A DNA stretch of 64,000 nucleotides from the NCBI RefSeq assembly GCF_001647285.1, contig NZ_LRML01000001.1:248001-312000 (forward strand), given 5' to 3'. Both the position numbers and the translations under genes were made by a program. A model generated the notes under the pieces. It was not told where the DNA came from, did not search any database, and saw only the letters and a list, made by a program, of their open reading frames with translations. Origin of the DNA: Rufibacter roseus (GTDB lineage: Bacteria > Bacteroidota > Bacteroidia > Cytophagales > Hymenobacteraceae). This document shows, in pieces, positions 39,545-64,000 of the stretch (position 1 is its first letter; every line of letters starts with the position of its first letter).

Positions 39545-40816
39545 TTAGTTAACTACTACGCGGCGTACTACCTTACCGTAGTCAGGAGTTTCGAAATGGA
39601 AGAAGTAAATACCTGGGGCTAAACCAGTGGTAGAAATAGATTCACCTGCTTTTTTAGCAGCAGGGCGAATTACTTTTCCATCTAGAGCGTGCACCGCTAC
39701 GGTTCTGTATTCAAAATTAGCTTTAAGCTCGTTGCCGTTGGTGGGGTTAGGGTATACAATTACGATGTAATCCATTTCTTCCTCAGTCAGGCCCAGCGGT
39801 GCCTCACAAATGTTGCCTACCTCTGTTCTAATGAGTCGGTTAGGATTTGTGGGGCTGGTGAATAGGTAGTTATAGAGGGCATTGCCAGGGCAAGCGGTGG
39901 CACAAGGACCTTCACGGTGGCCTATAATGGTTGGAATACGATTTTGTGGTTTTGTGGCAGTGGGAGTGTTTGGGTGCAAATCTGTGCCGTTAATGTCTAT
40001 GTTATCCTTTTTCGCCTTCCACTTAATCAACTTGTAGAGAGATTCTAAAGCCTTGGCGCTGGGTAACACGTTTGTGAAATCGCCCATGATGCAAATGCCC
40101 ATGCTATTTGAGTTCATAGCGCACAAATGAGCGCCCATGATATAATCTGAGGTAAAAGATGTGCCAGGCTTTACTTCTCTACCTTGAAAGATAGAGCCTT
40201 CTGGGCCAATGAGGTAATTATAGCCAATGTCTCCCCAGCCGTTTGTGTTACGGTGCAGCAGGTAGTACTGCCGTATAGTGGTCACTGCCTGCTCATAGGT
40301 GCTAATGTTGGCTGATGCGCCGTGGTGTACGGCTATATTTTCTGTTTTAGTATAAGTGGTTCCCCAAGTAGGCTCTGCCAAACCTGCTCGCCAAACCGAG
40401 GTAGGAATCACGTCAAAGGTACAATCACCATCGCCGGTACGCAGGGCCGCCGTTTTCCGTTCTGGTATTTTTATGTTGCCTGTGCTGAAAAAATCAAATG
40501 AAATCTGGCCCTTAATGCTGCCGCTGTAAAAGCTTACGGTTTCTTGTTTAGAGGGCAACGAAGCCAGCGCCACAATTATGTCAGAGTGTTCGTCGGCTTT
40601 CAGCTTCACGGTGTCTTTGCCTACTAGCAGGTAGCTGTTGTCAAACACGCAAGATTCGCATTTTATACCCACAGCATCTGCTGAGAAAGCTTCCAGTTGG
40701 TAAGACTGATTAGGGGAGACGTTCAGCTCAGTTTCTCCGGCAAGACCGTTTTGTGCCAGAGCAGGCACTGAGAAGGTAATCAGTGACAGAGAGAGGAGCG
40801 AGTAAAGTTTTTTCAT
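39545..40816 (-). CDS. T9SS-secreted N-acetylmuramoyl-L-alanine amidase (PGRP fold), paralogue A
   Basis: 423 residues from the ATG at 40816 (MKKLYSLLSLSLITFSVPALAQ signal peptide). Residues about 30-120 form an N-terminal beta domain shared only with the neighbour. The Amidase_2/PGRP domain follows, with zinc ligands in IAVHHGAS, GHREGPC and CPG near the end of the domain, plus GYNYLIGPEGSIFQGRE. The C-terminal 75 residues (VVYPNPTNG, then LDGKVI, ending YGKVVRRVVV) are a T9SS sorting domain. The enzyme cuts the bond between MurNAc and L-Ala of peptidoglycan, outside the cell. A tandem paralogue lies 112 bases upstream with separate terminators. Confidence 0.9.
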   Translation of the reverse strand: MKKLYSLLSLSLITFSVPALAQNGLAGETELNVSPNQSYQLEAFSADAVGIKCESCVFDNSYLLVGKDTVKLKADEHSDIIVALASLPSKQETVSFYSGSIKGQISFDFFSTGNIKIPERKTAALRTGDGDCTFDVIPTSVWRAGLAEPTWGTTYTKTENIAVHHGASANISTYEQAVTTIRQYYLLHRNTNGWGDIGYNYLIGPEGSIFQGREVKPGTSFTSDYIMGAHLCAMNSNSMGICIMGDFTNVLPSAKALESLYKLIKWKAKKDNIDINGTDLHPNTPTATKPQNRIPTIIGHREGPCATACPGNALYNYLFTSPTNPNRLIRTEVGNICEAPLGLTEEEMDYIVIVYPNPTNGNELKANFEYRTVAVHALDGKVIRPAAKKAGESISTTGLAPGIYFFHFETPDYGKVVRRVVVN

Positions 40817-40866
40817 GTTGGTTAGGTGGTGATATAAGTTGAAGTGAAAATAACTATAGTAAAAAA

Positions 40867-40902
40867 ACAAGGAGCCCGACATGGTAAAAGCGGGCTCCTT
40901 GT
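40867..40902 (-). terminator. Intrinsic terminator of amidase paralogue B
   Basis: Hairpin ACAAGGAGCCCG / CGGGCTCCTTGT, followed in minus orientation by TTTTTTTACT; it separates the two amidase genes. Confidence 0.85.
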
Positions 40903-40928
40903 ATTGATTTGTTATGAATAAGGTTCTG

Positions 40929-42218
40929 TTAGTTGATGACAACCCTTCTTACTACTCTGCCATAATCTGGCGTATCAAAATGTAAAAAGTAAATGCCTTT
41001 GGCCAAGTCTGAGGTAGAAATACTTTCACCGGACTTTTTAGTGGCAGGCCGAATTACTTTTCCATCTAGAGCGTGCACCGCTACGGTTCTGTATTCAAAG
41101 TTAGCTTTAAGCTCGCTGCCATTGGTGGGGTTAGGGTATACTACCACAATCTGGTTCATTTCTTCATTAGTAAAACCAAGCGGGACCTCGCAAACATTCC
41201 CCACCTCATTGCGAATAGGGCGGTCAGGGTGATTGGCTGGGCTAATAAAATGGTTTTTGTAGAAGAGCTCTCCAGGGCAAGTGGTAGAGCAAGGTCCCTC
41301 GCGGTGACCAATCAATCTTGGAATATTATTTTGTGTTCTATTTGGGTCAGCAGGGTGTAAAACTCTGGAATCAAGATCGATGTTGCTTTTTTCGGCTTTC
41401 CATTTGATCAGCTTGTACAAAGATTCTAAAGCTTTGGCTGTGGGCATCTGATTGGAATAATCTCCAATCATGCAAATACCCATAGTGTTAGTATTCATTG
41501 CACAAAGGTGAGCTCCAATTATTTCATCAGAGTCTCTGGTTTGCCAACTTAATTTCTCTCTTCCCAAAAAGATGGTACCGTCTGGGCCAATCAGGTAGTT
41601 GTAGCCAATATCAGACCAACCGTTACCTCCATTAGCTTTTGGGGTAGTGTGGTAAGTATAATAACTCCTTAAAACGCGCAAAGATTCCTCGTAAGTGGGG
41701 GCGGTATTAGCTGAGGCGCCATGGTGCACCGCAATTACATTGGTAGTGGAAAAGCCTGGTGTATAGCTTGGCTGATTTAAGCCGGCTCTCCAAACAGATG
41801 GCGGTACTACTTCAAAAGAACAGTTACCGTCTCCGGTGCGCAAGGTCACCCCTTTCTTGGCAATGGGTTTAGTAGGCGTGCCATTCATAAAATTAAGGCT
41901 TAAGTCGCCTTTAATCGTGCCGCTATAAAAAGTAACTGTTTTCTGCTTGGAGGGCAGAAACACCAGCGCCGCCATGTCAGCGTGAGCATCTTGCGTTACT
42001 TTTACTGTGTCTTGCCCCACTACAAAATAGGCTTGTTCCATTACACAAGACTCGCATTTTAAGCCAACAGCTTCTGCCGAGTTAGCCTCAACTTGATAAG
42101 AGTTTGCAGGTTGAACTGCTATAGTGGTGGATTTTACCACCCCTTGCTGGGAATAGGCCGCTCCGGTAAAACCGAAAAAAGCTAGCAATGTTAAAAGTGA
42201 TGGTATATGTTTAGTCAT
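40929..42218 (-). CDS. T9SS-secreted N-acetylmuramoyl-L-alanine amidase (PGRP fold), paralogue B
   Basis: 429 residues, laid out as paralogue A: signal peptide (MTKHIPSLLTLLAFFGFTGA...YSQ), an N-terminal beta domain with SAEAVGLKCESCV, the amidase with IAVHHGAS, GYNYLIGPDG, GHREGPC and CPGELFY, and the T9SS sorting domain ending YGRVVRRVVI. Both copies keep a CESC pair in the N-terminal domain, perhaps a disulfide. About two thirds of residues agree with A, and the sorting-domain DNA is nearly identical over some 50 bases, so the pair arose by tandem duplication. It would act outside the cell on peptidoglycan. Confidence 0.9.
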   Translation of the reverse strand: MTKHIPSLLTLLAFFGFTGAAYSQQGVVKSTTIAVQPANSYQVEANSAEAVGLKCESCVMEQAYFVVGQDTVKVTQDAHADMAALVFLPSKQKTVTFYSGTIKGDLSLNFMNGTPTKPIAKKGVTLRTGDGNCSFEVVPPSVWRAGLNQPSYTPGFSTTNVIAVHHGASANTAPTYEESLRVLRSYYTYHTTPKANGGNGWSDIGYNYLIGPDGTIFLGREKLSWQTRDSDEIIGAHLCAMNTNTMGICMIGDYSNQMPTAKALESLYKLIKWKAEKSNIDLDSRVLHPADPNRTQNNIPRLIGHREGPCSTTCPGELFYKNHFISPANHPDRPIRNEVGNVCEVPLGFTNEEMNQIVVVYPNPTNGSELKANFEYRTVAVHALDGKVIRPATKKSGESISTSDLAKGIYFLHFDTPDYGRVVRRVVIN

Positions 42219-42709: not shown

Positions 42710-43981
42710 CTATACATATATGTTGTGCTCCAGAGCAAACATCTTTTGTCTTACCAATAGGCAAGCGCCAATAACTCCCGCTTGTTCTCCTAAGGCAGAT
42801 ATTCTGATTTGAGTATCATTGTTTACCAGACTCAGAGAGTACTTGTTGATGGCGCTCTTAATGGGCAGGAGAATGTAATCTTCAGTAGAAGATAGGCTGC
42901 CCCCAAGAATTATCAGCTCAGGATTGAAAATGTTAATGAGCAAGGCAATGCCCTTGCCAATCTTTTTGCCCACTTTGGCAATCAACTCAATTGCTAGCAC
43001 GTCATCGTTCTGCGCGGCCGCGATGATGTCATCCAGTTTCAGGTCTTCCAACTCCCCGTCTTTCAGATCAATTAGAGTAGAAGCACCGGCCTGCAACCGT
43101 TCCTTGAACATTTTGATCAGGGCCCAGCCTGAAGCCTCTGTTTCCAGGCAGCCTTTCTTGCCGCATTTACAGATAATTTCGTTCTGGAAAACCGGAATGT
43201 GGCCAAACTCACCAGAGTACCCTGACTTGCCGTAGTAGAGTTGGTTGTTAATCATAACACCCATACCAATTCCATAGTCAAGGTTCAGGAACAATACATC
43301 TTTCTCTTTTTCTACTACGCCAGAACAGAACTCGCCGTAGGCCATGGCGCGCGAATCATTTTCAAGAAACACCTTTATACCCACGTGCTCTTCTATAATC
43401 TTGCTGAGCGGGTCATCATTAAAATGGAATACATTGTAGTTATACCCTTTGGCGTAGTTGATACGGCCGTAAAGGTTAATGCCTATGCCCAATATTTTAG
43501 ACTTAGGCACCGGAAGCTCCTCAATAAATTTGGTGATAATGGCGCAAAGCTCCTCTAGTGACTCTTCAGAGTTGCTAAGGCGGTAAGGGTAATTATTTAT
43601 GTTGCTAATCAGGTTCTTCTGAAAATCCGTCAGACCTATATTGATGTGGTGGGTTTTGACATCAATACCCAAGAAAAAGCCTGAGTCAGGTACTAAGCCA
43701 TATACATTTGGTTTACGCCCCCCGGTAGAGTCAACTTTACCATGGTCCTGTACCAAGCCCTCACTAATTAAATCGTTTAAAATGCTGGTGATTTTAGGAA
43801 CGCTTAAATTGAGTTCTTTGCCCAGTTCTGCAATAGTTGCGTTGCCTATGTTGGCAAAATAAGATATAACCTTCTTCTTAAGATTTACATTTTTAAACGC
43901 TACCCCAGGCGGAATGTCGCTGTTAATTTCCTCTATGAAGGTTTTAGCCTTTTTTGTTTTTTTTGCGAGGGCTTCAGTCAT
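42710..43981 (-). CDS. ROK-family transcriptional regulator (NagC/Mlc-like), copy 1
   Basis: 423 residues from the ATG at 43981. An N-terminal winged helix (about 25-85: KKVISYFANIGNATIAELGK then LSVPKITSILNDLISEGLVQ) precedes the ROK sugar-kinase-like domain, with FLGIDVKTHHINIG (phosphate 1), EFGHIPVF and the zinc motif CKCGKKGCLE. This domain order (HTH plus ROK, as in NagC, Mlc and XylR) indicates a sugar-responsive repressor; NagC binds GlcNAc-6-phosphate. It faces away from the secreted-enzyme cluster. A near twin lies at 54619, and the pair brackets that cluster. Confidence 0.9.
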   Translation of the reverse strand: MTEALAKKTKKAKTFIEEINSDIPPGVAFKNVNLKKKVISYFANIGNATIAELGKELNLSVPKITSILNDLISEGLVQDHGKVDSTGGRKPNVYGLVPDSGFFLGIDVKTHHINIGLTDFQKNLISNINNYPYRLSNSEESLEELCAIITKFIEELPVPKSKILGIGINLYGRINYAKGYNYNVFHFNDDPLSKIIEEHVGIKVFLENDSRAMAYGEFCSGVVEKEKDVLFLNLDYGIGMGVMINNQLYYGKSGYSGEFGHIPVFQNEIICKCGKKGCLETEASGWALIKMFKERLQAGASTLIDLKDGELEDLKLDDIIAAAQNDDVLAIELIAKVGKKIGKGIALLINIFNPELIILGGSLSSTEDYILLPIKSAINKYSLSLVNNDTQIRISALGEQAGVIGACLLVRQKMFALEHNIYV

Positions 43982-44369
43982 AAATTTAATTAGTATGATT
44001 TTATAGTTACGCAATTATAAAACTTTTTAAATAAAATCAAGATGAATGACTAAAAAAAATAAAAAATAGGCGTGGTTGAGTAGAGTGTTTATATTGATTG
44101 GAAAGGCTGCAGGTTGAATTATTAAAAAGTTATTTGCTAATAGAAGGAGAGCTATGATCTATTATCGCTTTACTTATCAAGCCCAAAACTGAAAGGTGTA
44201 ATATCTAATTGGGGCTGCAGCAGGTCAAAGAACATTTCTTTTTGATGGCACAAAAGGACGCCCTCGTTCATGAATATGTTGGCAGAAGAATTTAAGATTA
44301 GGGGCTTGAGAAGCTCCGTATATGATCTTACTGTACAGTATTTCGTAAGAGGAAACAAAACCAAAATTT
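43982..44369. other. Divergent region upstream of ROK copy 1
   Basis: AT-rich, no gene. It holds a palindrome candidate operator at 44001-44020 and the presumed promoters of the ROK and DUF4112 genes. Confidence 0.55.
44001..44020. promoter_or_regulatory. Candidate ROK operator
   Basis: TTATAGTTACGCAATTATAA: arms TTATAGTT / AATTATAA match at 7 of 8 positions, 20 bases upstream of ROK copy 1. It could serve autoregulation; no second copy was found upstream of ROK copy 2. Confidence 0.25.
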
Positions 44370-44855
44370 ATGAATAACAGACCATCGCCGCCAATAGATG
44401 AACGCCTGAAATGGGTGGATTCTGTCTCCCGATTATTAGATAATCAGTTCCGCCTGCCTGGTACTAAGTTTCGCTTTGGGTTGGATCCTATAATAGGTTT
44501 AATACCGGTGGTAGGTGATCTCGGTTCATTTGCCATGTCAGGCGTATTGGTTATGACCATGGCAAAACATGGCGCCAGTCGCTATTTAGTTTTGCGGATG
44601 TTGTTCAATATCTTCCTTGATGCAGTAATTGGGGCAATCCCTATAATAGGCTGGATTTTTGACTTTACCTACAAAGCGAATCAGCGTAATATGAACCTGC
44701 TGCGCCGTCACTACCAAGAGGGCAAATACCAAGGAAAGGGTACTGGTTTTATGGTTGGAGTGTTGGTGGCTTTTCTACTGTTGTTTGCTCTACTCATATA
44801 CGTGGTCTGGAAATTAGTTGAACTTTTATGGGGCTGGGCTTCTTCCATGTGGTAA
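44370..44855 (+). CDS. DUF4112-family membrane protein
   Basis: 161 residues. The conserved core FGLDPIIGLIPVVGDLGSFA (about 47-66) is the DUF4112 signature, with two further hydrophobic segments (LRMLFNIFLDAVIGAIPIIG and a C-terminal MVGVLVAFLLLFALLIYVVW). It has no signal peptide and is predicted in the cytoplasmic membrane. The family has no assigned function. It stands between ROK copy 1 (divergent) and the unknown secreted protein. It may be a bystander rather than part of the glycan system. Confidence 0.85.
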   Translation: MNNRPSPPIDERLKWVDSVSRLLDNQFRLPGTKFRFGLDPIIGLIPVVGDLGSFAMSGVLVMTMAKHGASRYLVLRMLFNIFLDAVIGAIPIIGWIFDFTYKANQRNMNLLRRHYQEGKYQGKGTGFMVGVLVAFLLLFALLIYVVWKLVELLWGWASSMW

Positions 44856-45272: not shown

Positions 45273-45339
45273 TTCCGCCTATTGGTAAGAGCTATAGGTG
45301 AAAGCGTGCAACCAACATACCATCTGTTATTTCCTCCTT

Positions 45340-46515
45340 ATGAAAAAACTGTCTCAACTGCTTCTCTTGTTAACTGTGAGTGGGTTTGCGTATGGCCAAT
45401 CTTTAGACCCAAAACTCAACCAAGCTTTACTGCAAACAAAGCAAGGATCTATTGTGGAACTTCCTGGGTTTCTAAAACAGAATTTCCCTTCTATTGAATA
45501 CCATAAAATAGTACAGCCAGGGCCGCAGTATCTTATTTCTGACGATCCAGAATACATTAGAGTACCTGAAGCCATTGCTTTTCAAGAGCCGGTGCAGCCT
45601 GGCGCAGTACGGCTTTATGTGTACAATGTGAATGGGGTGCAAGAGCCATCTAAAATTGACCGTAAAATCACAGCAGTCATTAAGAATACCGGAACTTCTG
45701 ATATGCACTTGCGCATGCTCAAGTATTCTTCGCAGAAGCCTACCACAAACTACTTCAAATCAGGTAAAGAGGGTCTGGCTGATTATTTTGCCTCTAAGCC
45801 GGAAGAAAAAATAAGAACCATTAAACCCGGTCAGGCTATTGCCATAGATGAAAAGTTGGAAAAGAACGTTGTGAAATATGACGAGCTGGTGCATGGTTTC
45901 TATGAATTTGTCATTGATCAGCCTGGTCAGGTGAGCGTGATCCAAACAGATTTAAAAACCTCTGGCCCTGCAGCCTTGAAAAGAATAAAAGACGTGTTGC
46001 CGCCTAAAGGGCATAGTGGAGCTGGGCGTGGTGTATTTGGCGTGAGCAACTACCGCGTTTTGACTGACACCATACTTGATACTAAAAACGGTGCCGCCGA
46101 GTTAATTTTGGCGGATGGCAAGAAGGATCCATGGGTGCAGGGCTACGAAAGCTCCAGAGGCGAAGTGGCAAGTTTGGCTGGGAACTACGGAGTGATGTAT
46201 GAAGTGGAGTTGAAGTGGAAAAGCACTGACAGCAAAGGTTTAGCGCTAGTGACTTGGAACTCCCGCGCCGATGATAACAAATGGTGCGGTGGAATGGCCA
46301 CTACCATGGTCATGGACAAAGGTAAATATGAAGGCGGTATTGTTCAGTTGCCTAGTGACCGACTAAATACTAAAAAAGACCCTGAAGCTATTCTTATACA
46401 GATTTATCCGCCAGCTCCAAACGGAGAGGTGCAAACCATTAAATTCACTTATTCACCTCCTGGAGCATCTTGCTTGCCTACGCCGCTCATTTTTGTGCCG
46501 GTAGACATGAAGTAA
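45340..46515 (+). CDS. Unknown exported protein, first gene of the enzyme cluster
   Basis: 391 residues from the ATG at 45340; upstream in-frame codons (from 45298) lack signal properties. A signal peptide MKKLSQLLLLLTVSGFAYGQ is followed by a wholly beta-rich protein. Recognisable runs: VRLYVYNVNGVQEPSKIDRK, AVIKNTGTSDMHLRMLKYSS, and in the last third ALVTWNSRADDNKWCGGM and the ending PGASCLPTPLIFVPVDMK, with two Cys that may pair. I do not recognise the family and see no catalytic motif. It is followed after 33 bases by the first SGNH esterase, so it is probably co-transcribed with the set and may bind glycan. Confidence 0.7.
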   Translation: MKKLSQLLLLLTVSGFAYGQSLDPKLNQALLQTKQGSIVELPGFLKQNFPSIEYHKIVQPGPQYLISDDPEYIRVPEAIAFQEPVQPGAVRLYVYNVNGVQEPSKIDRKITAVIKNTGTSDMHLRMLKYSSQKPTTNYFKSGKEGLADYFASKPEEKIRTIKPGQAIAIDEKLEKNVVKYDELVHGFYEFVIDQPGQVSVIQTDLKTSGPAALKRIKDVLPPKGHSGAGRGVFGVSNYRVLTDTILDTKNGAAELILADGKKDPWVQGYESSRGEVASLAGNYGVMYEVELKWKSTDSKGLALVTWNSRADDNKWCGGMATTMVMDKGKYEGGIVQLPSDRLNTKKDPEAILIQIYPPAPNGEVQTIKFTYSPPGASCLPTPLIFVPVDMK

Positions 46516-46548: not shown

Positions 46549-47682
46549 ATGAAGCATACAACGTCTATTCAAATTCTGCTGGCCTTCTTGCTGTTTGCGT
46601 ATTCCGCCACGGAAGGAAAACAAAAGGAAGCCCAGGTAAACGTAAAAGCAGCCGCTAGCCCTGAGAAAATAGAATGGCACCCAGTGAACAAGTTTGGCAT
46701 CCGGGGCTTAGGCTGGCAAGAATTGCAAGAAACCTTTACCCGTCTGCCTGCCAAAGCCCAAGGAGTAGTTTCTCCTGCGGTTTGGAAACTTAGCCAACAC
46801 TCTGCGGGTCTTTACGTGCAGTTTGCCACTAACTCAACTACCATTAAGGTGAAATGGAGTGTTCGGGCCAACAACAGTTTCAGCCACATGGCGCCAACAG
46901 TTGTGAAAGGGGTAGACCTTTACGCCAGAGAGGGGCAGAACTGGCGCTGGGTTGGAGTGGGTAAGCCATCAGGCAAAAAGAACGAAGATGAAATTGCGAC
47001 CAATTTGCCCTCGGGGCAGAAGGAGTTCATGCTTTATTTGCCTCTCTATGATGGAGTAGATTCAGTGGCTATTGGGGTAGAAAACGGTTCAACCATCAGT
47101 GGTTTGACGGAGCCTCAGAAGAAACCTATCGTTTTTTACGGAACCTCCATTACCCAAGGAGCCTGCGCGTCTCGTCCGGGAATGGCGTACCCTGCTATCA
47201 TTGGGCGCTGCCTTAACCGTGAAACCGTCAATCTAGGATTCTCCGGAAATGGCAAAATGGATGAGGGAATGGCGAATCTGCTGACGGAGTTAGATCCTGC
47301 TTTGTTTGTGTTAGACTGCTTACCGAATTTGCAACCAGAGGAAGTGCTTCCCCGCACTTTGGCCGTGGTGAGAATGCTGCGGGCCGCTAAGCCGAATACG
47401 CCTATTCTATTAGTAGAAAATATAAACTATGCTCATAGTTGGGCAAACCAAAGGGTATCAAACTTAGTGCAGACTAAGAACAAGCACCTACAGCAGGCTT
47501 ATAAAGAGTTACAGTCAGAAGGAGTAAAGAACCTCTTCTACCTTGACAACAAAAACCTGATGGTGTCCAGCGGAGAGGGAACGGTAGATGGTATTCATTT
47601 AACCGATTTGGGATTCGCCCACTTAGCTAATGAGTTAGCGAAAGAAATAAAAAGAATAGATAAAAAAGTAAAGCTGCCATAG
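46549..47682 (+). CDS. Exported SGNH/GDSL hydrolase with N-terminal GxDLY domain
   Basis: 377 residues. A weak signal peptide (about 1-23) is followed by an N-terminal beta domain containing the GVDLY motif (about residue 123), the GxDLY domain of two-part SGNH esterases. The hydrolase domain has block I GTSITQGACAS (Ser nucleophile), block II GFSGNG, block III-like LDCLPN and the Asp-His pair DGIHLTDLG near residue 345. Such enzymes usually remove acetyl or other acyl groups from glycans. Position in the cluster suggests deacetylation of the target polymer. The hairpin element copy 21 follows the stop. Confidence 0.88.
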   Translation: MKHTTSIQILLAFLLFAYSATEGKQKEAQVNVKAAASPEKIEWHPVNKFGIRGLGWQELQETFTRLPAKAQGVVSPAVWKLSQHSAGLYVQFATNSTTIKVKWSVRANNSFSHMAPTVVKGVDLYAREGQNWRWVGVGKPSGKKNEDEIATNLPSGQKEFMLYLPLYDGVDSVAIGVENGSTISGLTEPQKKPIVFYGTSITQGACASRPGMAYPAIIGRCLNRETVNLGFSGNGKMDEGMANLLTELDPALFVLDCLPNLQPEEVLPRTLAVVRMLRAAKPNTPILLVENINYAHSWANQRVSNLVQTKNKHLQQAYKELQSEGVKNLFYLDNKNLMVSSGEGTVDGIHLTDLGFAHLANELAKEIKRIDKKVKLP

Positions 47683-47770: not shown

Positions 47771-48445
47771 ATGAAACAACTAACATTCATTACAGCCATA
47801 AGCTTCTATATCCTGTTTTTGGTTTCGCCAGCGTTGGCTCAAAAACCAGATAATTCCGCTATTTGGGAAAAGGAGATACAAGCTTTTGAAAAATTAGACA
47901 GCGCTAACATGCCAGCCCCTGGCGGCATTGTTTTTACAGGTAGCTCTTCCATTAGAGGCTGGCGCAGTTTACCGCAAGATTTTCCTGATTATCCTATCAT
48001 CATGCGTGGGTTCGGAGGATCCCGGATAAATGATGCTACCTTTTACTTCGACCGCATTGTCAAGAAATACCAGCCCAAGCAAGTATTTCTTTATTCTGGA
48101 GACAACGACATAGCCAGTGGCAAAAATGCTGAGATGACTTTTGAGCAGTTCAAGGCATTTGCCAAGAAAATGAAGAAGGAGCTGCCAAAGGCGGAGTTGG
48201 TATATCTGTCTATTAAACCCAGCCTAGCCCGGTGGAACCTATACCCTGAAATGGAGAAGGCCAACAAAAAGATCAAGCGCTATGCCTTTTGGCACTCAAA
48301 TGTAAAATTTGTAGATGTTAGTTCTGCCATGTTGGGTTCAGACGGAAAACCAAAGCCAGAATTGTTTGTGGGCGATGGTTTGCATATGACCCCTGCGGGC
48401 TATGAGTTGTGGAGGCAAATTGTACAACCGTATCTGCGCAAATAG
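47771..48445 (+). CDS. Exported SGNH/GDSL-type hydrolase
   Basis: 224 residues. Signal peptide (MKQLTFITAISFYILFLVSP...LAQ), then a single-domain SGNH hydrolase: block I FTGSSSIRGW with the nucleophilic Ser, block II GFGGSRI, block III YSGDNDIASGK (Asn) and the Asp-His pair GDGLHMTPAGY near the end. It is of the PF13472 type, related to platelet-activating-factor acetylhydrolase-like esterases. It likely removes O-acyl groups. It is 5 bases upstream of the GH20 start, a tight link, and follows the other SGNH gene after 88 bases. Confidence 0.88.
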   Translation: MKQLTFITAISFYILFLVSPALAQKPDNSAIWEKEIQAFEKLDSANMPAPGGIVFTGSSSIRGWRSLPQDFPDYPIIMRGFGGSRINDATFYFDRIVKKYQPKQVFLYSGDNDIASGKNAEMTFEQFKAFAKKMKKELPKAELVYLSIKPSLARWNLYPEMEKANKKIKRYAFWHSNVKFVDVSSAMLGSDGKPKPELFVGDGLHMTPAGYELWRQIVQPYLRK

Positions 48446-55851: not shown

Positions 55852-56585
55852 TTTTTTTTCAGTATGGTATTTAGGAGGATGATGCATTCAATAGAGTTAG
55901 TTCAAATTTATTCTTTTTTAAAAATCTTTTAATGGAAACTGCTGCATATTATAAAAGTTAAGCTGCTTTTATATTTGATATAGCTTAAATCAAAGAGTGA
56001 GTTAAGTAATTCAAAAAATTGTATAAGTAAGTTAGACCTCCTAAACAGTGTGATTAAGCCCTTACATTGGTATATCAATATGAGAGTCTCTACTACCTGT
56101 AGATATGAATTCCTTAAAATCAATGTAAGGCTAACTGTAGACTGGTGAAGATCATTCTATCTTATAATCTCAAAAGACTAATAGGTAGTTTGGTGTTGAT
56201 TATCGAAGAGGGCAAAAAAATGCCTTATCTATAAGAAGGTTTCCTATTCTTATTGACTCAGTCATAAAAGTTATTAAAATACAAGCCATTACTGGAAGTT
56301 TATGAATAAGCAAACTCCTAAAACCTTACAATTAGTTAGCTAAGGCAGGATAGGAGGCTATTGGAACTGACCTTTCTTGATTAGGCATCTACACAACAGA
56401 GTCAACTTCCCCTTCTTTCATCTCTAAAATTTCAGTGCTTACAGCAGTTGGGGTGCTTTCAAGATAAAAAGTATCATTTCTTTTGAAGGAACGGATGTCT
56501 TTTTTAAAAACTTAATAAAAATAATTAATAATTTCTTGTTGTTTTTAAAGGTTATTGCTACTTTAGTGTTGAACAATAATTTAAT
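55852..56585. promoter_or_regulatory. Long divergent control region of ROK copy 2 and the FAD oxidoreductase-SusCD operon
   Basis: About 730 bases, AT-rich, no supported gene. It contains an inverted pair AGCCCTTACATTG / CAATGTAAGGCT (56056-56068 and 56121-56132) and the presumed operon promoter at 56536-56566. Confidence 0.5.
56536..56566 (+). promoter_or_regulatory. Probable promoter of the FAD oxidoreductase-SusCD operon
   Basis: TTGTTG at 56536-56541 and TACTTTAG at 56559-56566 (consensus TAnnTTTG), 17 bases apart, 20 bases before the start codon. Confidence 0.4.
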
Positions 56586-58445
56586 ATGGCATTGATTAAA
56601 AAGAGCTGCTTTTTTCTTCTGTTTTGGCTGGTAGCAGCCAAAGTTCCGGCTATTGCCCAAACAGTCAAAACTGAACTATTGATCATAGGAGGTGGAGCCA
56701 GTGGTACTACTGCCGGGGTGCAGGCTGCCCGCATGGGCACCAACGTATTGATTATTGAAGAAACCCAATGGCTAGGAGGTATGCTTACCTCAGCAGGTGT
56801 GTCAGCCATTGATGGCAACCACCAGATGCCCTCTGGCCTGTGGGGAGAGTTCCGGCAAAAGCTTTACAACTATTATGGCGGACCGGCTGCAGTAGAAACT
56901 GGTTGGGTAAGCAATACACTTTTTGAACCGTCTGTGGGCAATAAATTGCTGAAAGAGCTAGCTCAGGAAAAGAATCTGACCATTTGGTACAATACCAAGT
57001 GGGAAGACCTCAAAAAAACTGAATATGGCTGGAAAGTAACCGTTCGGCAAGGCAAAAAAAAGAGAGCTGTTGAGGCCAAATTGATTATAGATGCTACTGA
57101 ACTGGGTGATGTGATGGCCAAGGCTGGAGCCACCTATGACATTGGCATGGACAGCCGATATGAAACCGGTGAGGAGTTTGCGCCTGAAAAAGCCAATGAC
57201 ATCATCCAAGACATGACCTATGTAGTGGTATTGAAAGATTACGGAAAAGGGAAAGACAAAACCATTAAAAAGCCTGCCGGATACAACCCTAAGGAATTTG
57301 ACTGCGCCTGTGACGTGTCTGACCCAGCTGCTGATGGAGGCCCAAATGAGAACTGTCTTGAAATGATGGGCTACGGTAAATTGCCGAATAACAAATACAT
57401 GATAAACTGGCCAAAATGCGGAAATGATATCTACCTAAACATTATAGAAAAATCTCCGGAAGAGCGGGCGGAGGCTTTGAAAGAAGCCAAGCTTCATACG
57501 CTCCGTTTTCTGTATTACCTGCAGACAGAGCTTGGGTTTAAAAACCTAGGCATCGCAGATGATGAATTCCCTACCGCTGACAAGCTGCCAATGATTCCGT
57601 ACCACCGTGAATCAAGACGGGTAGACGGTTTAGCCCGGTTTGCCCTGCAGCATGTAGCTAAACCATTTGACCAGAAAGAAGCTTACTACCGTACCGGTAT
57701 TGCCGTGGGCGATTATACCATTGACCACCATCACCTTAAAAACCCGGAGGCGCCAGATATTGATTTCGTAAAAATAAAGGTACCTTCTTACAATGTTCCA
57801 TTGGGTTCCCTTATACCTAAGGGAGTGGAAGACTTGATAGTGGCAGAAAAGAGTATTAGCGTCACCAATATTGTGAATGGAGCCACGCGCCTACAGCCGG
57901 TTGTTTTAGGCATAGGCCAGGCTGCAGGTGCTTTAGCTGGTGTTGCCTTGAAGAACAATGTAGAGCCCCGTGAAGTGAGCATCAGAGAAGTGCAGCAGGT
58001 TTTGCTTGATTCTAAGGCTTACTTGATGCCTTATATAGATGTGAAACCCCAAGATCCGCACTTTCAGGCTATACAGCGCATTGGTGCCACCGGCATATTG
58101 AAAGGAGTAGGCTTGCCATATAAATGGGCAAACCAAACGTGGTTTTACCCTGAGCGCCCCATTAGTGAATATGAGCTGGTGTCGGGTCTTAAACTTTACT
58201 ATGAAGAATTAAAAGCTTTTCAGGCTTCGGGTCAGAACCTGACTCTTAAAGTTTTTGCTGAAGTGCTAAGTGCCATTGATCCAGCTCTGACTTATGAAAA
58301 GGTTGCGGCAGAATGGGTAAAGTTACAATTAGGAGAACAAGCAGCGCCAGAGGTAGAGTTGAATAGGAGGCAGGCGGCGGTAATGGTAGACCAGCTGCTG
58401 AATCCGTTTGCCAAACCTGTTGATTTTAACGGTCAACTGCTTTGA
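56586..58445 (+). CDS. Exported FAD-dependent oxidoreductase (FAD_oxidored type)
   Basis: 619 residues. The first 25 residues (MALIKKSCFFLLFWLVAAKV...AIAQ) form a signal peptide, unusual for a flavoenzyme. The Rossmann dinucleotide motif follows (LLIIGGGASGTTAGVQAARM, about 31-50) and IIEETQWLGGMLTSAG, the PF12831 pattern. Later: LIIDATELGDVMAKAG, YHRESRRVDG and a closing GxGQAAGALAG stretch near 455. A C-terminal helical domain (490-619) has no clear match. PF12831 proteins accompany many PULs, but their reaction on glycans is not generally established. It starts the operon that continues with SusC and SusD (54-base gap). Confidence 0.85.
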   Translation: MALIKKSCFFLLFWLVAAKVPAIAQTVKTELLIIGGGASGTTAGVQAARMGTNVLIIEETQWLGGMLTSAGVSAIDGNHQMPSGLWGEFRQKLYNYYGGPAAVETGWVSNTLFEPSVGNKLLKELAQEKNLTIWYNTKWEDLKKTEYGWKVTVRQGKKKRAVEAKLIIDATELGDVMAKAGATYDIGMDSRYETGEEFAPEKANDIIQDMTYVVVLKDYGKGKDKTIKKPAGYNPKEFDCACDVSDPAADGGPNENCLEMMGYGKLPNNKYMINWPKCGNDIYLNIIEKSPEERAEALKEAKLHTLRFLYYLQTELGFKNLGIADDEFPTADKLPMIPYHRESRRVDGLARFALQHVAKPFDQKEAYYRTGIAVGDYTIDHHHLKNPEAPDIDFVKIKVPSYNVPLGSLIPKGVEDLIVAEKSISVTNIVNGATRLQPVVLGIGQAAGALAGVALKNNVEPREVSIREVQQVLLDSKAYLMPYIDVKPQDPHFQAIQRIGATGILKGVGLPYKWANQTWFYPERPISEYELVSGLKLYYEELKAFQASGQNLTLKVFAEVLSAIDPALTYEKVAAEWVKLQLGEQAAPEVELNRRQAAVMVDQLLNPFAKPVDFNGQLL

Positions 58446-58499: not shown

Positions 58500-61400
58500 A
58501 TGACAAAGCTTTTACAAATGGCTAGGCAGCAACTCAGGTTGTGCTCATTAGCTCTTCTACTGGTCATGCTCGCGTGTTGGCAAAACACGGTGCTAGCTCA
58601 GGCGCAAACAATAAAAGGAAAGGTCACTGACAATGCCGGGGAGGCATTGCCAGGTGTTTCTGTGGTAATCAAAGGAACCACTTCGGGTACCTCAACAGAT
58701 ATCAACGGAGAATTCCAAATTCCAGTTTCTGCAGGGGCAAACACATTGGTATTTAGTTACATTGGGTATGAATCCCAGGAGTTGAGTGCGCAGGCCGGAA
58801 GTGAAATTTCAGTAAAGCTGCAAAATTCAGCCAGTGCTATAGATGAGGTGTTGGTAGTGGGGTACGGTACTCAGAAAAGAACCACCATGACTGGTTCTGT
58901 AGCTCAGATTGGGAACAAGGAGATCACACAGGCACCTCCAATGAACCTCTCCAACGTGTTAGCGGGTCGTTTACCTGGTTTGGTGGCGGTGCAGAACTCC
59001 GGTAGACCTGGGGCAGATAATTCTGCCTTATTGGTTAGGGGGTTAAGTACCACCAATGGAGCTGCCCAAGGACCTCTGATTATTGTAGATGGCGTCCCTA
59101 GAGATAACTTCCAAAACCTTGATCCTAGTGAAGTGGAAACTATCTCTATTCTGAAAGACGCTTCGGCAGCGGTGTATGGGGTGCAGGCCTCAAACGGGGT
59201 GATTTTGATCACGACCAAGCGTGGTAAAGTAGGTAAACCTGCTATTACTTATAACACTTCATTTGCCTTAAACTCAAATACCAGATTCCCTAAGTTCCTG
59301 AATGGCCCTGATTATATGCAGTGGATCAAGAGAGGGGAGGAAATGGATAATGATTATCTGATGAACACTGGCGGAGATCCACTTCCGCTTACCTACACAG
59401 AAGATCAGATTCAGGCATTAAGAAATGGTACCCACACCGCCGATTTCGGAAACACAGACTGGGTAGGTGACTTAGTGGACAACGTTTCTACTTCACAATA
59501 CCACAACGTTTCTATAAGCGGGGGAACAGATAAAATGAGGTATTTTACCAGCCTGGGGTACTTTGACCAAAATGGGGTGGTAAAGAACACCAATTTTACC
59601 CGTTACAATTTCAGAACTAACCTGGATGTGACTTTCAATGATTATCTCTCTTCCATCATCACGTTGGGCGCGCGCCGTGAGGACAGAGAGAACCCAGGGG
59701 TTGTGGCAGACAACTCTGTTTGGATGAGCCCCTTTTACCAAGCGGTAAGAGCATTGCCCAACATTCCGGCTACCTATGATGGTCTTCCTGCTGCGGGTTG
59801 GAGAAGTGGTGGTGGGGTAAACCCAATTGCCGCAGTTGAAAATTCTGGTTTTCAAAGATCTGAGACCGACGTTTTCCAAACTAACCTTTCTCTCGTTTTC
59901 AAGGTTCCTGGTGTAAAAGGGCTGGAAATGAAGGTACAGGGAGCCTATGATAAGATTCTGACAGAGTCTAAGAATTGGCTCACTCCCTACTATTTGTCTA
60001 CCAGACAAATAACAAATACTGGTTTTGTGTGGAGCAGAAGTTTAGCTCCTACTGCCACTACCACTGTGCTGTCTCAGGGGTACACACAAAGAAGCCACAC
60101 CATGTTCCAACCAAGTATTAACTATTCTACTACCGTTGGTAACGACCATACCGTTTCTGCTTTGTTATTATACGAATTCAGCCAGTTTGAAAATAAGAAT
60201 ATGACGGCTGGGGCAAGAAACTTCCCTTTGACCAATATACCGGAACTAAATTTTGGAGGATCGGCAACAGAAGATTTCGTTCGTCCGGGTGGTGCATCTT
60301 CGCTAACGTCTAGAGGTGGCTATGTTACAAGGTTGAACTATGGGTTTCAAGGAAAGTATTTACTTGAATTCTCTGCCCGTTATGATGAATCCAGTAACTT
60401 CCCAAAACATAATAGAGCCGGATTCTTCCCTGGAGCATCAGTGGGTTGGGTAGTAAGTAATGAACCCTTTTTTAAAGATTTCTCTTCTTCCGTTAACTTC
60501 TTAAAGCTTAGAGGCTCTTACGGAAAAGTAGGAAATGACAGAGCTTCAAACTCTTTTGCCTACCTGAATACTTTCGCTTTAACAACTGCTCCAGTTGTAG
60601 TAATAGGGGGTAAGCCAATTGCTGCACTTTACACAGGTAGCCCCGCCAACCTGAATTTGACTTGGGAAACTACTACCATATCTAACGTTGGGTTAGAAAC
60701 TTCCTTCTGGAGAGGCTTATTAGATGTAGAGGTAGATTTCTTTTACAAGGTGACCCGTGACATCCTTCAGGGAGTGTCAGGTATCTATCCTCCATCAATT
60801 GGAGGTTTCTTCCCAAGTACGAATAATTCAGCGGTGGTTGACAATAGAGGGGTAGACTTACAGATTAGACACCGTAATTCTATCAATAAATTTAGCTACG
60901 GGGTTACCGGTAACTTCAACTACGCAAAGAACAGAATTCTGGAATATGATCAAGCCGCCAATATTGCTGAATGGCAAAATCAAATTGGCAGGCCAATGGG
61001 CGGGAAGTACGGTTTTATTTCTGAAGGTCTTTTCCAATCATGGGAAGAAGTTAACAACTGGGCAAGTTCTCCCAGCGGACAAGCTGCTCCAGGGTTTGTT
61101 AAGTACAGAGATTTGAACGGAGATGGTCAGATCAACGCCAGTGACCAAACCTATATAGGGCTTAGCAATGTGCCAGAGATAATGTATGGCTTAAACTTAG
61201 ATGCCCAGTACGGACCTTTTGACTTTTCTGCCTTGTTTCAGGGGGCAGCCAGAAGAGATGTGGCTTTGGGCGGTACGTATGAAGGAGCCGCTGGGGTATC
61301 AGGGGTGGCAGATAATACACCGTTTACCCGCTCTTTCTATAACCTAGGGAACTCACCTTATTACATAGTAGAGAATTCCTGGACTCCAGAAAACCCAGGT

Positions 61401-61706
61401 GCCTATTATCCAAGATTACAGGCTAACAGAAGCGGAGCGCCAAATCACAATGGCCACCCCAACTCTCATTTTGTGGTAGATGGATCTTACCTGCGTCTTA
61501 AGTCTGTACAAGTAGGGTACAGTATTAACAAAGCCTTCCTGAATAAGCTAAAAGTAGAGCAGTGGAGGTTCTATGTTGCTGGCTCTAACATTTTCACCAT
61601 CTCAGATGACCGTCTGAAGTACCTTGATCCGGAAATGCCAAACGTGAGCAATGGTTTCTATCCGCAGCAAAGAGTAGTGACAGTAGGTACTAACATAACT
61701 TTCTAG
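58500..61706 (+). CDS. SusC/RagA-family TonB-dependent outer-membrane glycan receptor
   Basis: 1068 residues. Signal peptide (about 1-33), CarboxypepD_reg-like domain (KGKVTDNAGEALPGVSVVIK, about 38-110), the SusC-specific stretch EVLVVGYGTQKR, the plug with DGVPRDNFQNLDPSEVETIS and ILKDASAAVYGVQASNGVIL, then a 22-strand barrel closing with QQRVVTVGTNITF. It imports oligosaccharides across the outer membrane with energy from TonB. It is 7 bases upstream of the susD-like gene; the pair marks a polysaccharide utilization locus. There is no N-terminal anti-sigma-interacting (STN) domain, so control through an anti-sigma system is not indicated; the ROK gene next door is the likelier regulator. 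Confidence 0.96.
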   Translation: MTKLLQMARQQLRLCSLALLLVMLACWQNTVLAQAQTIKGKVTDNAGEALPGVSVVIKGTTSGTSTDINGEFQIPVSAGANTLVFSYIGYESQELSAQAGSEISVKLQNSASAIDEVLVVGYGTQKRTTMTGSVAQIGNKEITQAPPMNLSNVLAGRLPGLVAVQNSGRPGADNSALLVRGLSTTNGAAQGPLIIVDGVPRDNFQNLDPSEVETISILKDASAAVYGVQASNGVILITTKRGKVGKPAITYNTSFALNSNTRFPKFLNGPDYMQWIKRGEEMDNDYLMNTGGDPLPLTYTEDQIQALRNGTHTADFGNTDWVGDLVDNVSTSQYHNVSISGGTDKMRYFTSLGYFDQNGVVKNTNFTRYNFRTNLDVTFNDYLSSIITLGARREDRENPGVVADNSVWMSPFYQAVRALPNIPATYDGLPAAGWRSGGGVNPIAAVENSGFQRSETDVFQTNLSLVFKVPGVKGLEMKVQGAYDKILTESKNWLTPYYLSTRQITNTGFVWSRSLAPTATTTVLSQGYTQRSHTMFQPSINYSTTVGNDHTVSALLLYEFSQFENKNMTAGARNFPLTNIPELNFGGSATEDFVRPGGASSLTSRGGYVTRLNYGFQGKYLLEFSARYDESSNFPKHNRAGFFPGASVGWVVSNEPFFKDFSSSVNFLKLRGSYGKVGNDRASNSFAYLNTFALTTAPVVVIGGKPIAALYTGSPANLNLTWETTTISNVGLETSFWRGLLDVEVDFFYKVTRDILQGVSGIYPPSIGGFFPSTNNSAVVDNRGVDLQIRHRNSINKFSYGVTGNFNYAKNRILEYDQAANIAEWQNQIGRPMGGKYGFISEGLFQSWEEVNNWASSPSGQAAPGFVKYRDLNGDGQINASDQTYIGLSNVPEIMYGLNLDAQYGPFDFSALFQGAARRDVALGGTYEGAAGVSGVADNTPFTRSFYNLGNSPYYIVENSWTPENPGAYYPRLQANRSGAPNHNGHPNSHFVVDGSYLRLKSVQVGYSINKAFLNKLKVEQWRFYVAGSNIFTISDDRLKYLDPEMPNVSNGFYPQQRVVTVGTNITF

Positions 61707-61712
61707 AAAATC

Positions 61713-63404
61713 ATGAAGCGAATATATTCAACTTTAAAATGTCTGTTAGTAGGTGGACTACTGGTAGCCTCCCAAGGCTGTGAAATAGACTTGGAGTTAG
61801 ACGATAGATACACTGAACTGACAATCTATCAGAATCCGGAAAGCATTGACTTGTACATGGCGGGCATGTACAATGAGTTTCACACATTTAAGTTCGGGCA
61901 ATTCCCTATTGGGTATGACAATGCCACAGATGGCTTGACAGACATAATGAAATACACTTCCTCTGCAGAGGGAAATGGAAGTGTGAACAGACTAGCCTTT
62001 GAGCCGCAGCGGGTAAGTGCAGCAAGCCCTAACTTTAATTACTGGAATTCTGGTTATAACCGCATACGCAGGCTCAATGAGCTAATGTATGGTATCAATA
62101 ACTATGCAGACGGGCTTACTGCGGAACAGAAAACGCTTTATGAGGCAGAAGCAAGGTTTATCAGGGGGTATGTGTATTTCTGGTTGGTAAAGCTTCACGG
62201 AAGCGTGGTTTTATTACCTGAGCTTACATCAGAGCCAAATAACCCAAGGGCAAGTGAAGAGGAAAGTTGGAATTTTGTACTGGCAGATTTTGCTTTTGCT
62301 GCAGAGCATTTGCCTACCAAGGCTGAGGGTGGTGCTGCTTGGAGAGGACGGGCCACAAAAGATGCTGCCTATGCCTTAATGGCCAGAGCGGCCTTGTATG
62401 CTGGCTCTATTGCCGAATATGATAATAAGCAGTTTAACAATGACCCATTAACTGGTGTTCCTGCTGCCAAAAAGAACGAATATTACCAAATAGCTGCCGA
62501 TGCGGCCGGTGAGGTAATGAAAATGGGGTACAGCCTTCCTAAGGATTTTACCGGCATGTTCACCAACCCTAATAACAGTGAGGCCATTTTCTCAGTAGAT
62601 TACCAACGCCCAGGGGTGACCCACACCTATGACAGCAGATTCTCTCCGCCCGTTGCCGCCGCAAGTAACCGAGCTGAGGGTGTACCTACCGCGGAGCTGG
62701 TAGAGGAGTTTGAAATGGCCAATGGGGAAGAGTTCTCCTGGTCTAATCCAGCCCATGCCGCTGCCCCATATGCTAATCGGGATCCAAGATTTTATGGTAC
62801 CGTTCTTTACAATGGTGCCGTTTGGCAAGGACGAACCCTTGAAACATTTGTAGGCGGAAATGTAGGTTTTGTAGAGTATGGCACAGATGCTAACCCAAGT
62901 AATACAGTTACTGGCTACTATGTACGCAAATATTTAGATCCAACCAATACCACTTTCGCCCAAAATAGATCTGCCCAATCTTGGATGGTGATACGCTACG
63001 CTGAAGTGCTACTTATCTATGCAGAGGCGCAGTTGAAACTCGGCAACTTATCTGAGGCTAGAAATGCTATCAATCAGGTAAGAGGAAGAGCAGACTTGCC
63101 AAATACCCAAGCCCAGACGGCAGCTGACCTCATGGAGGCCATAGAACATGAGCGTATTGTAGAGTTAGCGTTTGAAGGACATAGGTACTGGGATCTACGC
63201 CGCTGGAGAAAAGCCCACACAGTTCTTAACAACCTGCGCGTGCATGGTGATAAAATCACTAAAAACGCTGCTGGAGACTTACAATATCAGAGAGTAGATG
63301 CTGACAAGCAGGACCGCAGATTCTTGTCTCAGATGTATTACATCCCGCTTCCGCAGGGAGAAATTGCAAATAACCGGGCATTAACCCAAATACAAGGTTG
63401 GTAA
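61713..63404 (+). CDS. SusD/RagB-family glycan-binding lipoprotein
   Basis: 563 residues. Lipoprotein signal ends SQGC (about C23). The SusD fold is shown by TPR-like helices (NRIRRLNELMYGINN; EARFIRGYVYFWLVKLHGSV), RATKDAAYALMARAALYAGS and the closing signatures SWMVIRYAEVLLIYAEAQLK, NQVRGRADLP and FEGHRYWDLRRWRKA, ending in IPLPQGEIANNRALTQIQGW. It caps the SusC transporter at the surface and captures the glycan. Start 7 bases after the SusC stop; the next lipoprotein gene follows after 17 bases. Confidence 0.95.
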   Translation: MKRIYSTLKCLLVGGLLVASQGCEIDLELDDRYTELTIYQNPESIDLYMAGMYNEFHTFKFGQFPIGYDNATDGLTDIMKYTSSAEGNGSVNRLAFEPQRVSAASPNFNYWNSGYNRIRRLNELMYGINNYADGLTAEQKTLYEAEARFIRGYVYFWLVKLHGSVVLLPELTSEPNNPRASEEESWNFVLADFAFAAEHLPTKAEGGAAWRGRATKDAAYALMARAALYAGSIAEYDNKQFNNDPLTGVPAAKKNEYYQIAADAAGEVMKMGYSLPKDFTGMFTNPNNSEAIFSVDYQRPGVTHTYDSRFSPPVAAASNRAEGVPTAELVEEFEMANGEEFSWSNPAHAAAPYANRDPRFYGTVLYNGAVWQGRTLETFVGGNVGFVEYGTDANPSNTVTGYYVRKYLDPTNTTFAQNRSAQSWMVIRYAEVLLIYAEAQLKLGNLSEARNAINQVRGRADLPNTQAQTAADLMEAIEHERIVELAFEGHRYWDLRRWRKAHTVLNNLRVHGDKITKNAAGDLQYQRVDADKQDRRFLSQMYYIPLPQGEIANNRALTQIQGW

Positions 63405-63421
63405 CATCTAAACTGTTTGAA

Positions 63422-64000
63422 ATGAAAAGAAATTTCTATAGCTATACTGTGTTTCTTTTTAGCCTGCTGTTTCTAGCGGGCTGTGAGACACCAGAGCCTT
63501 TTGAAAATAATGATAACAACCAGTTGTCAGATATTTGGCTCACCATTCCAGGGCAGAAAGATGCTCGCTTTAATGGCACCTACAGTGCTAACGGAGAAAC
63601 GATCACTTTTGAAATACCCCATTTCTTCCCAGCTGAATCTGATAATCAGGTGGACCTGAAAAATTTGGTTTTAAGAGCCAATATTCCGGTAGATGCCAGA
63701 ATCAGCCCTGCCTTGGGTAATCCAATGGATCTGACCGAACCAATTAAAATTGACATTGCCTCGGGTACAGGGGCGGTGAAATCTTACTGGGTAGAAGTAA
63801 AAAAAGTAGCAGACCTATCAGTAAAAACTGTAAGCATAGAAGTAGATGGTCAAGAAATCAATGGATTTGAACGCAATGGCGAACTGATTTTCTATGTGGT
63901 TCCTGGGGTAGATGTGTCTAATGCTACTTTGAACATAGGAATTAGTCGTCACTCCACTTCTTCACTTCCTTCTGGTTCAAAAATAGATTTGACAAATCCG
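63422..64000 (+). CDS. DUF5018-like surface lipoprotein (3' end cut by window)
   Basis: 193 codons are visible from the ATG at 63422, with no stop before the window ends. A lipoprotein signal MKRNFYSYTVFLFSLLFLAG then C21 precedes beta-rich Ig-like domains: DIWLTIPGQKDARFNGTYS, NLVLRANIPVDARISPALG and GAVKSYWVEVKKVADLSVKT, the repeating pattern of DUF5018 proteins that accompany SusCD pairs. They are thought to be surface glycan-binding proteins (SGBPs). The next genes of the operon would lie to the right. Confidence 0.75.
   Translation, partial: MKRNFYSYTVFLFSLLFLAGCETPEPFENNDNNQLSDIWLTIPGQKDARFNGTYSANGETITFEIPHFFPAESDNQVDLKNLVLRANIPVDARISPALGNPMDLTEPIKIDIASGTGAVKSYWVEVKKVADLSVKTVSIEVDGQEINGFERNGELIFYVVPGVDVSNATLNIGISRHSTSSLPSGSKIDLTNP

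Follow-up and report, generated by a model that had tools for sequence, protein, structure and literature searches.

Among described systems, the BT0433-BT0449 region of Bacteroides thetaiotaomicron combines, according to published tables, a ROK regulator (BT0433), a GH89 protein with a SusCD pair (BT0438-40), DUF4855, DUF5009, family-10 hydrolases and a calcineurin-like protein (PMC3878776, PMC10434189). Among the literature passages compared, Bt0438 is the single member of this region with a tested activity, having been shown experimentally to be an alpha-N-acetylglucosaminidase (PMC8225759), and BT0433 is listed as a predicted NanR for sialic acid and N-acetylglucosamine (GlcNAc) (PMC3878776, Table 2). 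In this study, a stretch of 64,000 nucleotides from a Rufibacter genome (G000:C1:248001-312000, hereafter the window) was analyzed together with the adjoining downstream stretches L001 and L002 (window coordinate = L001 coordinate + 63000). Judged by its gene families, the locus that begins there is a polysaccharide utilization locus (PUL) of a Rufibacter species, with the SusCD hallmark of such loci: two SusCD pairs clustered with GH20, GHL10, esterase and ROK genes. In gene content it resembles the B. thetaiotaomicron region, which was compared through the tables of the papers only; a similar-looking locus of B. finegoldii was read directly.

We consider it moderately probable that this is a ROK-controlled PUL for a glycan that is rich in N-acetylhexosamine, O-acylated, partly N-deacetylated and probably phosphodiester-containing. 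The first-pass annotation of the window had proposed an aminosugar, cell-wall-like or phosphodiester-linked glycan, and its aminosugar part gains support from an AGE homologue, a DUF5009 protein with a predicted HGSNAT fold, GH20 and ROK, as well as from the recurrence of NAGPA near the set in distant Bacteroidota. Computation covered the gene families, the partial conservation of the set, the island structure, the AGE homology, the DUF5009 fold (from the R. ruber homologue) and the association between DUF4434 and the importer. The AGE-type epimerase is nearer to characterized GlcNAc 2-epimerases (534-540 bits along its length against those with solved structures) than to cellobiose epimerase (at most 76 bits against chains so named), and it retains the catalytic region; two of its histidines are presumably catalytic. 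No match to PF04131 (N-acetylmannosamine-6-phosphate epimerase) exceeded the cut-off in any of 15 genomes carrying the locus or DUF4434, compared with 6 of 14 controls. Ten of these 15 carry all or part of the locus (G000, G001, G005, G006, G013, G015, G326, G452, G312 and G304), and the other five were selected by DUF4434 alone, with AGE unchecked (G191, G142, G203, G210 and G141). The same search left AGE as the only recognized route for N-acetylmannosamine (ManNAc) in Rufibacter, and because PF04131 stayed below the cut-off we infer, by an argument from absence, that AGE converts glycan-derived ManNAc to GlcNAc; ManNAc is thus the testable sugar prediction of this study. nagA exceeded its cut-off in eight of the 15 genomes, including all six Rufibacter, and the Rufibacter cell can probably use GlcNAc.

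The acetylation state of the glycan is addressed by DUF5009. When a structural model of the R. ruber homologue (pLDDT 85.4) was searched against the PDB, the top 12 matches were HGSNAT chains (TM score by query 0.44-0.54) and the 13th was GWT1 (0.40); for entry 8jkv, whose title is just 'membrane proteins', the name HGSNAT comes from PMC12423673. His61 of DUF5009 is invariant across 22 aligned rows, and the model suggests an HGSNAT-like acetyltransferase fold. In the part of the literature consulted, DUF5009 intermixes with the HGSNAT clade and no DUF5009 function is experimentally confirmed (PMC12423673), and the related NagX is proposed to acetylate periplasmic glucosamine (PMC9007349). Taken together, the predicted fold and the proposal for NagX suggest the presence of N-deacetylated residues.

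The window contains only about half of the locus, the remainder of which reaches ∼20 kb beyond the window end. A gene set clustered within 25 kb had been described at first; every family named in it was confirmed by Pfam at its coordinates, whereas the extent was too small by these ∼20 kb and the amidases do not belong to the conserved set. Surface export of the set by the type IX secretion system (T9SS), also proposed, holds for only a part of it, because tails were reported on some proteins only: GHL10, NAGPA and one amidase have tails over the cut-off, and the Pfam scan of the window proteins reported none on GH20, the SGNH esterases or the FAD oxidoreductase. The two Amidase_2 matches scored 57.2 and 60.1 bits and the two ROK matches 199.9 and 191.2 bits. 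The features of the window are as follows.

39545-40942, minus strand: Amidase_2 protein 2; Por_Secre_tail at 25.2 bits, below the cut-off of 27; facultative neighbour
40929-42218, minus strand: Amidase_2 protein 1; T9SS tail at 31.7 bits, cut-off 27; facultative neighbour
42710-44014, minus strand: ROK regulator 1 (Pfam), paralogue of ROK regulator 2
44370-44855, plus strand: DUF4112 protein (Pfam), left border of the island
45340-46515, plus strand: ORP405, without a Pfam family, predicted exported, all-beta in a structure model (start codon chosen by us; open reading frame as listed starts at 45298)
46549-47682, plus strand: GxDLY + Lipase_GDSL_3 esterase (Pfam, 209.4 bits)
47771-48445, plus strand: SGNH/GDSL esterase (Pfam Lipase_GDSL_2, 59.3 bits)
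48451-50766, plus strand: GH20 beta-N-acetylhexosaminidase, putative lipoprotein (Pfam, 367.4 bits; best solved match 6q63; start chosen by us, open reading frame as listed starts at 48409)
50772-52622, plus strand: GHL10 + Golvesin_C + T9SS tail (Pfam, 186.9 bits)
52853-54520, plus strand: predicted NAGPA phosphodiester glycosidase + Golvesin_C + T9SS tail (Pfam, 111 bits)
54619-55887, minus strand: ROK regulator 2 (Pfam), adjoining the oxidoreductase operon
56512-56531, plus strand: candidate ROK operator TTAATAAA-N4-TTTATTAA with two mismatches, ahead of the oxidoreductase operon
56586-58445, plus strand: FAD-dependent oxidoreductase (FAD_oxidored), predicted exported (Pfam, 335 bits)
58500-61706, plus strand: SusC TonB-dependent transporter (Pfam SusC plug)
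61713-63404, plus strand: SusD lipoprotein (Pfam, 213.7 bits)
63422-64000, plus strand: DUF5018 putative lipoprotein (Pfam), running past the window end (start chosen by us; open reading frame as listed starts at 63398)

Past the window end lie the rest of DUF5018, two GHL10-DUF4985 genes, DUF5009, a sodium:solute symporter family protein (SSF) and two SGNH genes, and further on DUF4434, the AGE-type epimerase, CstA and the small lipoprotein-like X287; a second SusC-SusD-DUF5017 set on the opposite strand closes the island (L001:15162-20000 and L002:1-1087). This second SusCD is probably part of the system, because in the Sphingobacterium loci L086 and L090 SusCD-DUF5017 is collinear with the main operon and directly precedes ORP, X287, DUF5009, SGNH, DUF4434 and AGE. 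The ORP405 gene (45340-46515) is a member of the locus, and 12 homologues at 55-71% identity lie near DUF4434 in named loci; none of its fold relatives was credible (best TM score 0.26), and the toxin names among the matches were treated as noise. The FAD oxidoreductase had no informative relative among solved structures. Outside the island, the window encodes proteins with GH43 and alpha-L-arabinofuranosidase C-terminal domains (1119-2144 and 25962-27500) and a monomeric isocitrate dehydrogenase matched over its full length (19673-21907).

Among 395 genomes drawn from the phylum, in which the background of SusC identity is 34-38%, four besides the window genome carry SusC relatives at 40-53% identity (G326, G452, G312 and G304). 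The loci of G326, G312 and G304 hold ROK, AGE, DUF4434, FAD oxidoreductase, importer, DUF5009, GHL10-DUF4985 and SusCD; that of G452 holds ROK, AGE, ORP, SGNH, SusCD, DUF5018 and GHL10-DUF4985, with no label for DUF4434, FAD oxidoreductase, DUF5009 or importer across its 55 kb. Only SusC and SusD were found in two background loci (G257 and G058; SusC 37-38%). In the B. finegoldii locus, ROK, DUF4434, AGE, SusCD and DUF5018 form one cluster as they do here, accompanied by MFS, DUF4855, GH89, GH3 and SGNH, and the stretch compared contains no FAD oxidoreductase, GHL10 or DUF5009. The record that carries it, L003 (NZ_OY725913.1), is classed as a non-mobilizable plasmid; mltG stands a few genes ahead of the locus and a transposase follows it. 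Named DUF4434 loci were also compared, as the best 80 of a longer list with flanks of at most 10 kb per side; the taxa include Chitinophagaceae, Sphingobacteriaceae, Flavobacterium, Parabacteroides, Tannerella and Dysgonomonas. Labels were assigned by clustering or by blastp at E 1e-8, so that the two GHL10 types can overlap, and since 17 loci are shorter than 15 kb and three lack their own DUF4434 in the open reading frame calling, the counts are lower bounds: AGE 46, SGNH 40, GHL10/DUF4985 36, SusD 36, DUF5009 34, FAD oxidoreductase 30, ROK 26, NAGPA 9, GH20 7, amidase 0 and GH89 0. A fused glucosamine-6-phosphate isomerase-like/PIG-L deacetylase-like protein is encoded near DUF4434 at L111:13657-15606 and in nine further named loci. 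Much of the gene set thus recurs in other Bacteroidota, every locus lacking some members. Conservation in related genomes was the check suggested at the outset, and the neighbourhood is indeed conserved in part. Several families (DUF4434, DUF4985, DUF5018, FAD_oxidored and ORP405) are thereby joined in one recurrent Bacteroidota gene set, of which no earlier description was found in the open-licence PMC literature.

The phosphodiester component is suggested by NAGPA, which was surveyed with DUF4434 in 148 phylum genomes. The NAGPA domain occurs in 50 of these and a strong DUF4434 match (>230 bits) in nine; NAGPA is present in seven of the nine versus 43 of the 139 others (P = 0.007, kinship not corrected for). 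The two genes lie at most 20 kb apart on one contig in four of the nine (19 kb in the window genome), within 2 kb in three, and on separate contigs in G091, G112 and G207; G210 and G141 have no NAGPA despite a strong DUF4434. A borderline genome left out of the nine (G103; DUF4434 at 30.0 bits, cut-off 30) has NAGPA and would give 8/10. The NAGPA and FAD oxidoreductase genes nearly abut in L079, and the NAGPA domain of the window keeps the conserved NLDGGGS region. By domain content and gene position, NAGPA is a recurrent partner of the set, also in distant Bacteroidota.

Within Rufibacter, where the closest named records by DUF4434 (95-96% identity) are R. ruber, R. immobilis and R. glacialis, 16 genomes were compared; G467, G468 and G469, copies of G001, G005 and G015 with identical coordinates and bit scores, were counted once. 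A ROK relative at no less than 71% identity is present in 15 of the 16, with no match in G007 at E 1e-60. At the ROK site, six genomes (G000, G001, G005, G006, G013 and G015) carry the PUL, or its left arm and the oxidoreductase-symporter arm, the stretches compared for G006 and G013 not extending to DUF4434 and AGE. In nine genomes the site is empty, the right-flank genes adjoining ROK (DUF4112 in G012), and G007 was not assigned; a diphthamide-synthase-like flank gene was not found in the empty-site genomes G009 and G012. The locus is therefore an island in Rufibacter, present in six genomes and absent from nine. Among the six, NAGPA adjoins the left arm in four, the other three copies being 60-67% identical, and GH20 does so in five. 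Three relatives, R. glacialis, R. ruber and R. immobilis, have in the CstA-X287 interval an extra GH20 (L027:3989-5905, L072 and L073) that the window genome lacks at this position. Outside the PUL site, G002 (L161) has a second ROK (71%) that adjoins a CstA gene (76%).

The compartment in which DUF4434 works appears to vary with the importer. The importer families SSF, MFSb and MFS2 are mutually exclusive, one being found in 52 of 63 named loci of at least 15 kb and two in none, and a twin-arginine translocation (Tat)-like motif is present on DUF4434 in 31/31 rows with MFSb versus 0/41 with SSF or MFS2. A further 12 rows had no importer found, one row was dropped and three starts were set by hand; 82 of 84 rows differ, and a few are near-copies. 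The P value of this table (4e-21) was set aside because the rows are related, and in the DUF4434 tree the switch needs two changes, one in the main clade and one in a long-branch paralogue. Since the predicted signal accompanies one importer type and neither of the other two, DUF4434 is placed just before or just after import. In our reading, the substrate of DUF4434 is the last oligosaccharide, which it would meet ahead of import in Bacteroidales and Flavobacterium and after import in Rufibacter and others. Its single solved relative, 4h41, bears the name putative alpha-L-fucosidase, which was not adopted.

Regulation was examined through sites resembling TTAATAAA-N4-TTTATTAA in the regions beside ROK genes. 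These show one mismatch in R. glacialis, R. immobilis and R. ruber, two in the window genome and three in the G006 region; the G013 region was left out of the comparison. Of 35 ROK-adjacent regions, 14 reach a shuffle fraction of at most 0.04, the ROK1 region of the window being outside these 14, and the enrichment is partly circular because the consensus was drawn from the same regions. Across the window genome the consensus is uninformative (18 sites with up to three mismatches versus 21 for a reversed-pattern control), and the window itself holds two sites versus 0.73 expected, as many as in 16 of 100 shuffles. A weak site at 42435, ahead of the first amidase, has three mismatches and was not accepted; the G012 promoter has two three-mismatch sites, which the alignment does not pair with it. 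The amidases may share a paralogous ROK signal.

For the proposed working of the locus we infer all catalytic steps and cell locations, a role for the FAD oxidoreductase and ManNAc as a glycan component. GHL10 and NAGPA, exported by the T9SS, would cut the polymer extracellularly, and the fragments would be bound by SusD and DUF5018 and imported by SusC. SGNH esterases would then remove O-acyl groups, GH20 and the GHL10-DUF4985 proteins would shorten the chains, and DUF5009 may N-acetylate exposed glucosamine using cytosolic acetyl-CoA, as proposed for NagX. A short oligosaccharide would enter via the SSF symporter and be cleaved by cytosolic DUF4434; the released ManNAc would be converted by AGE to GlcNAc, which would then enter metabolism through NagA.

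Teichoic-acid-like or phosphodiester polymers are a possible substrate. A tentative and more specific proposal, to which we assign a rather low probability, is a widespread PUL type for the ManNAc/GlcNAc glycopolymers of Gram-positive walls, namely the linkage units of teichoic acids or the secondary wall polymers: NAGPA would open the GlcNAc-1-phosphate link, hexosaminidases with GHL10/DUF4434 would open the ManNAc-GlcNAc chain and AGE would channel ManNAc to GlcNAc. No PUL for such polymers was found described in the open-licence PMC literature. According to the passages of PMC7831098 that were compared, linkage units of wall teichoic acid contain GlcNAc-phosphate joined to ManNAc, one secondary wall polymer consists of ManNAc-GlcNAc-GlcNAc repeats, and phosphodiester bonds like those of teichoic acids are missing from secondary wall polymers, which speaks against a role for NAGPA inside their chains. 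The fit of these polymers to AGE, NAGPA, GH20 and, in relatives, GH89 is suggestive. Chitin was not retained as a substrate; GH20 alone favours it and is not specific, and fungal chitin has no specific support.

Several observations weigh against the N-acetylhexosamine PUL as outlined above. Its ManNAc component rests on a missing gene and a reversible enzyme, PF04131 gave matches below the cut-off in seven of the 15 genomes (at most 22.2 bits, cut-off 27), and nagA likewise stayed below its cut-off in seven. A passage of PMC9007349 states a distant kinship between NagX and TfMurT, the N-acetylmuramic acid (MurNAc) transporter of T. forsythia, and DUF5009 could therefore be a transporter. The SusCD pair of the window recurs at 88-89% identity only in R. 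glacialis among the other Rufibacter; in R. ruber and R. immobilis a distant SusCD occupies the same place (29-34%; SusD 30%), G006 has a distant one (29-34%) elsewhere in its stretch and none was seen within the stretch compared for G013. AGE was uncalled in 34 and GH20 in 73 of the best 80 named loci, the flanks being short. Finally, the Tat/importer association reflects one switch, or two with the long-branch paralogue, and is therefore not repeated independent evidence.

An unlikely alternative is peptidoglycan scavenging, in which the amidases would strip stems, a DigH-like GHL10 would cut denuded strands and DUF5009 would import MurNAc. The two amidases adjoin the locus, the GHL10 family is present (among solved structures, one GHL10-DUF4985 protein matches Cwp19 best, at 2.8e-7), MurQ is found in the window genome and the kinship of TfMurT to NagX would suit an importer. 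However, MurQ occurs in 20/20 genomes tested whether or not the PUL is present, Pfam called no etherase or MurNAc kinase in the locus and the DUF5009 model has the HGSNAT fold. The amidases themselves are found in three of six PUL-bearing versus one of nine PUL-free Rufibacter genomes (P = 0.24; the search for G015 was taken from its copy G469). The order ALDH-amidases-ROK-DUF4112 is common to the window genome and G012, which has three amidase matches and no PUL at the site, and in G001 and G006 a single amidase has ALDH on one side and a PUL arm on the other. Conversely, the PUL occurs in R. glacialis, R. immobilis and G013, whose whole genomes gave no amidase match at E 1e-30, and none was found in the 40-55 kb stretches of the four distant loci (G326, G452, G312 and G304). 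Their absence from the best 80 named loci says little, because the flanks are too short to reach amidases that in the window genome lie ∼31 kb from DUF4434. The two amidases with ROK1 are thus a separable neighbour of the PUL; amidases are not conserved with it, and no separate search for a muramidase was made. Since the PUL occurs without amidases in three relatives and amidases occur without the PUL in one, removal of peptidoglycan stems was rejected as a core function, and this part of the first-pass annotation is weakened.

Alpha-GlcNAc-containing glycans of hosts or animals (heparan-like or mucin-type), with DUF5009 acting as HGSNAT and GH89 as NAGLU, are a slightly less likely substrate than peptidoglycan. 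The resemblance of the DUF5009 model to HGSNAT, the presence of GH89 in the loci of B. finegoldii and G312 and the activity of Bt0438 agree with such a substrate, and the SusC BT0439 is called implicated in host glycan degradation in a passage of PMC5238430. Against this, the Pfam scan of the window locus called no GH89, uronate lyase or sulfatase, and the best 80 named loci hold no GH89, which in B. finegoldii is ∼13 kb from DUF4434 and would fall outside such flanks. Moreover, the carriers include the soil genera Chitinophaga, Pedobacter and Niastella. Catabolism of sialic acid, or a relic of it, with a NanR-like ROK and AGE as NanE, is less likely still, although the prediction for BT0433 and the presence of AGE would agree with it. 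Bacteroidetes nan operons contain a ROK regulator, an epimerase, an importer and an esterase, all of which the window locus also has. It differs from them in that no sialidase is among its Pfam calls and that sialate lyase (nanA) reached 111.5 bits against a cut-off of 382 and was not called in the window genome, to which this search was confined. Sialic acid is therefore an unlikely source of ManNAc in this genome and was rejected as the substrate.

The N-acetylhexosamine PUL can finally be set beside its described counterparts. One of its GHL10-DUF4985 proteins shares 28.7% identity with Escherichia coli DigH over 34% of its length, with a GHL10-type domain and several Asp/Tyr positions in common; however, the 11 best blastp matches listed for DigH are GHL10 proteins of related loci (25-29%) and none is the window's own, and the DUF4985-type proteins show conserved residues of their own. 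DUF5009 has the fold of NagX and HGSNAT in the R. ruber model, whereas the fitness data for NagX, in the passage compared, come from other bacteria (PMC9007349) and the activity of DUF5009 is predicted. Relative to the BT0433-BT0449 region, the Rufibacter locus is without GH89, GH3 and DUF4855, has T9SS-tailed GHL10 and NAGPA, GH20 and a second SusCD, and carries an SSF symporter in place of MFS and a DUF4434 without a signal.

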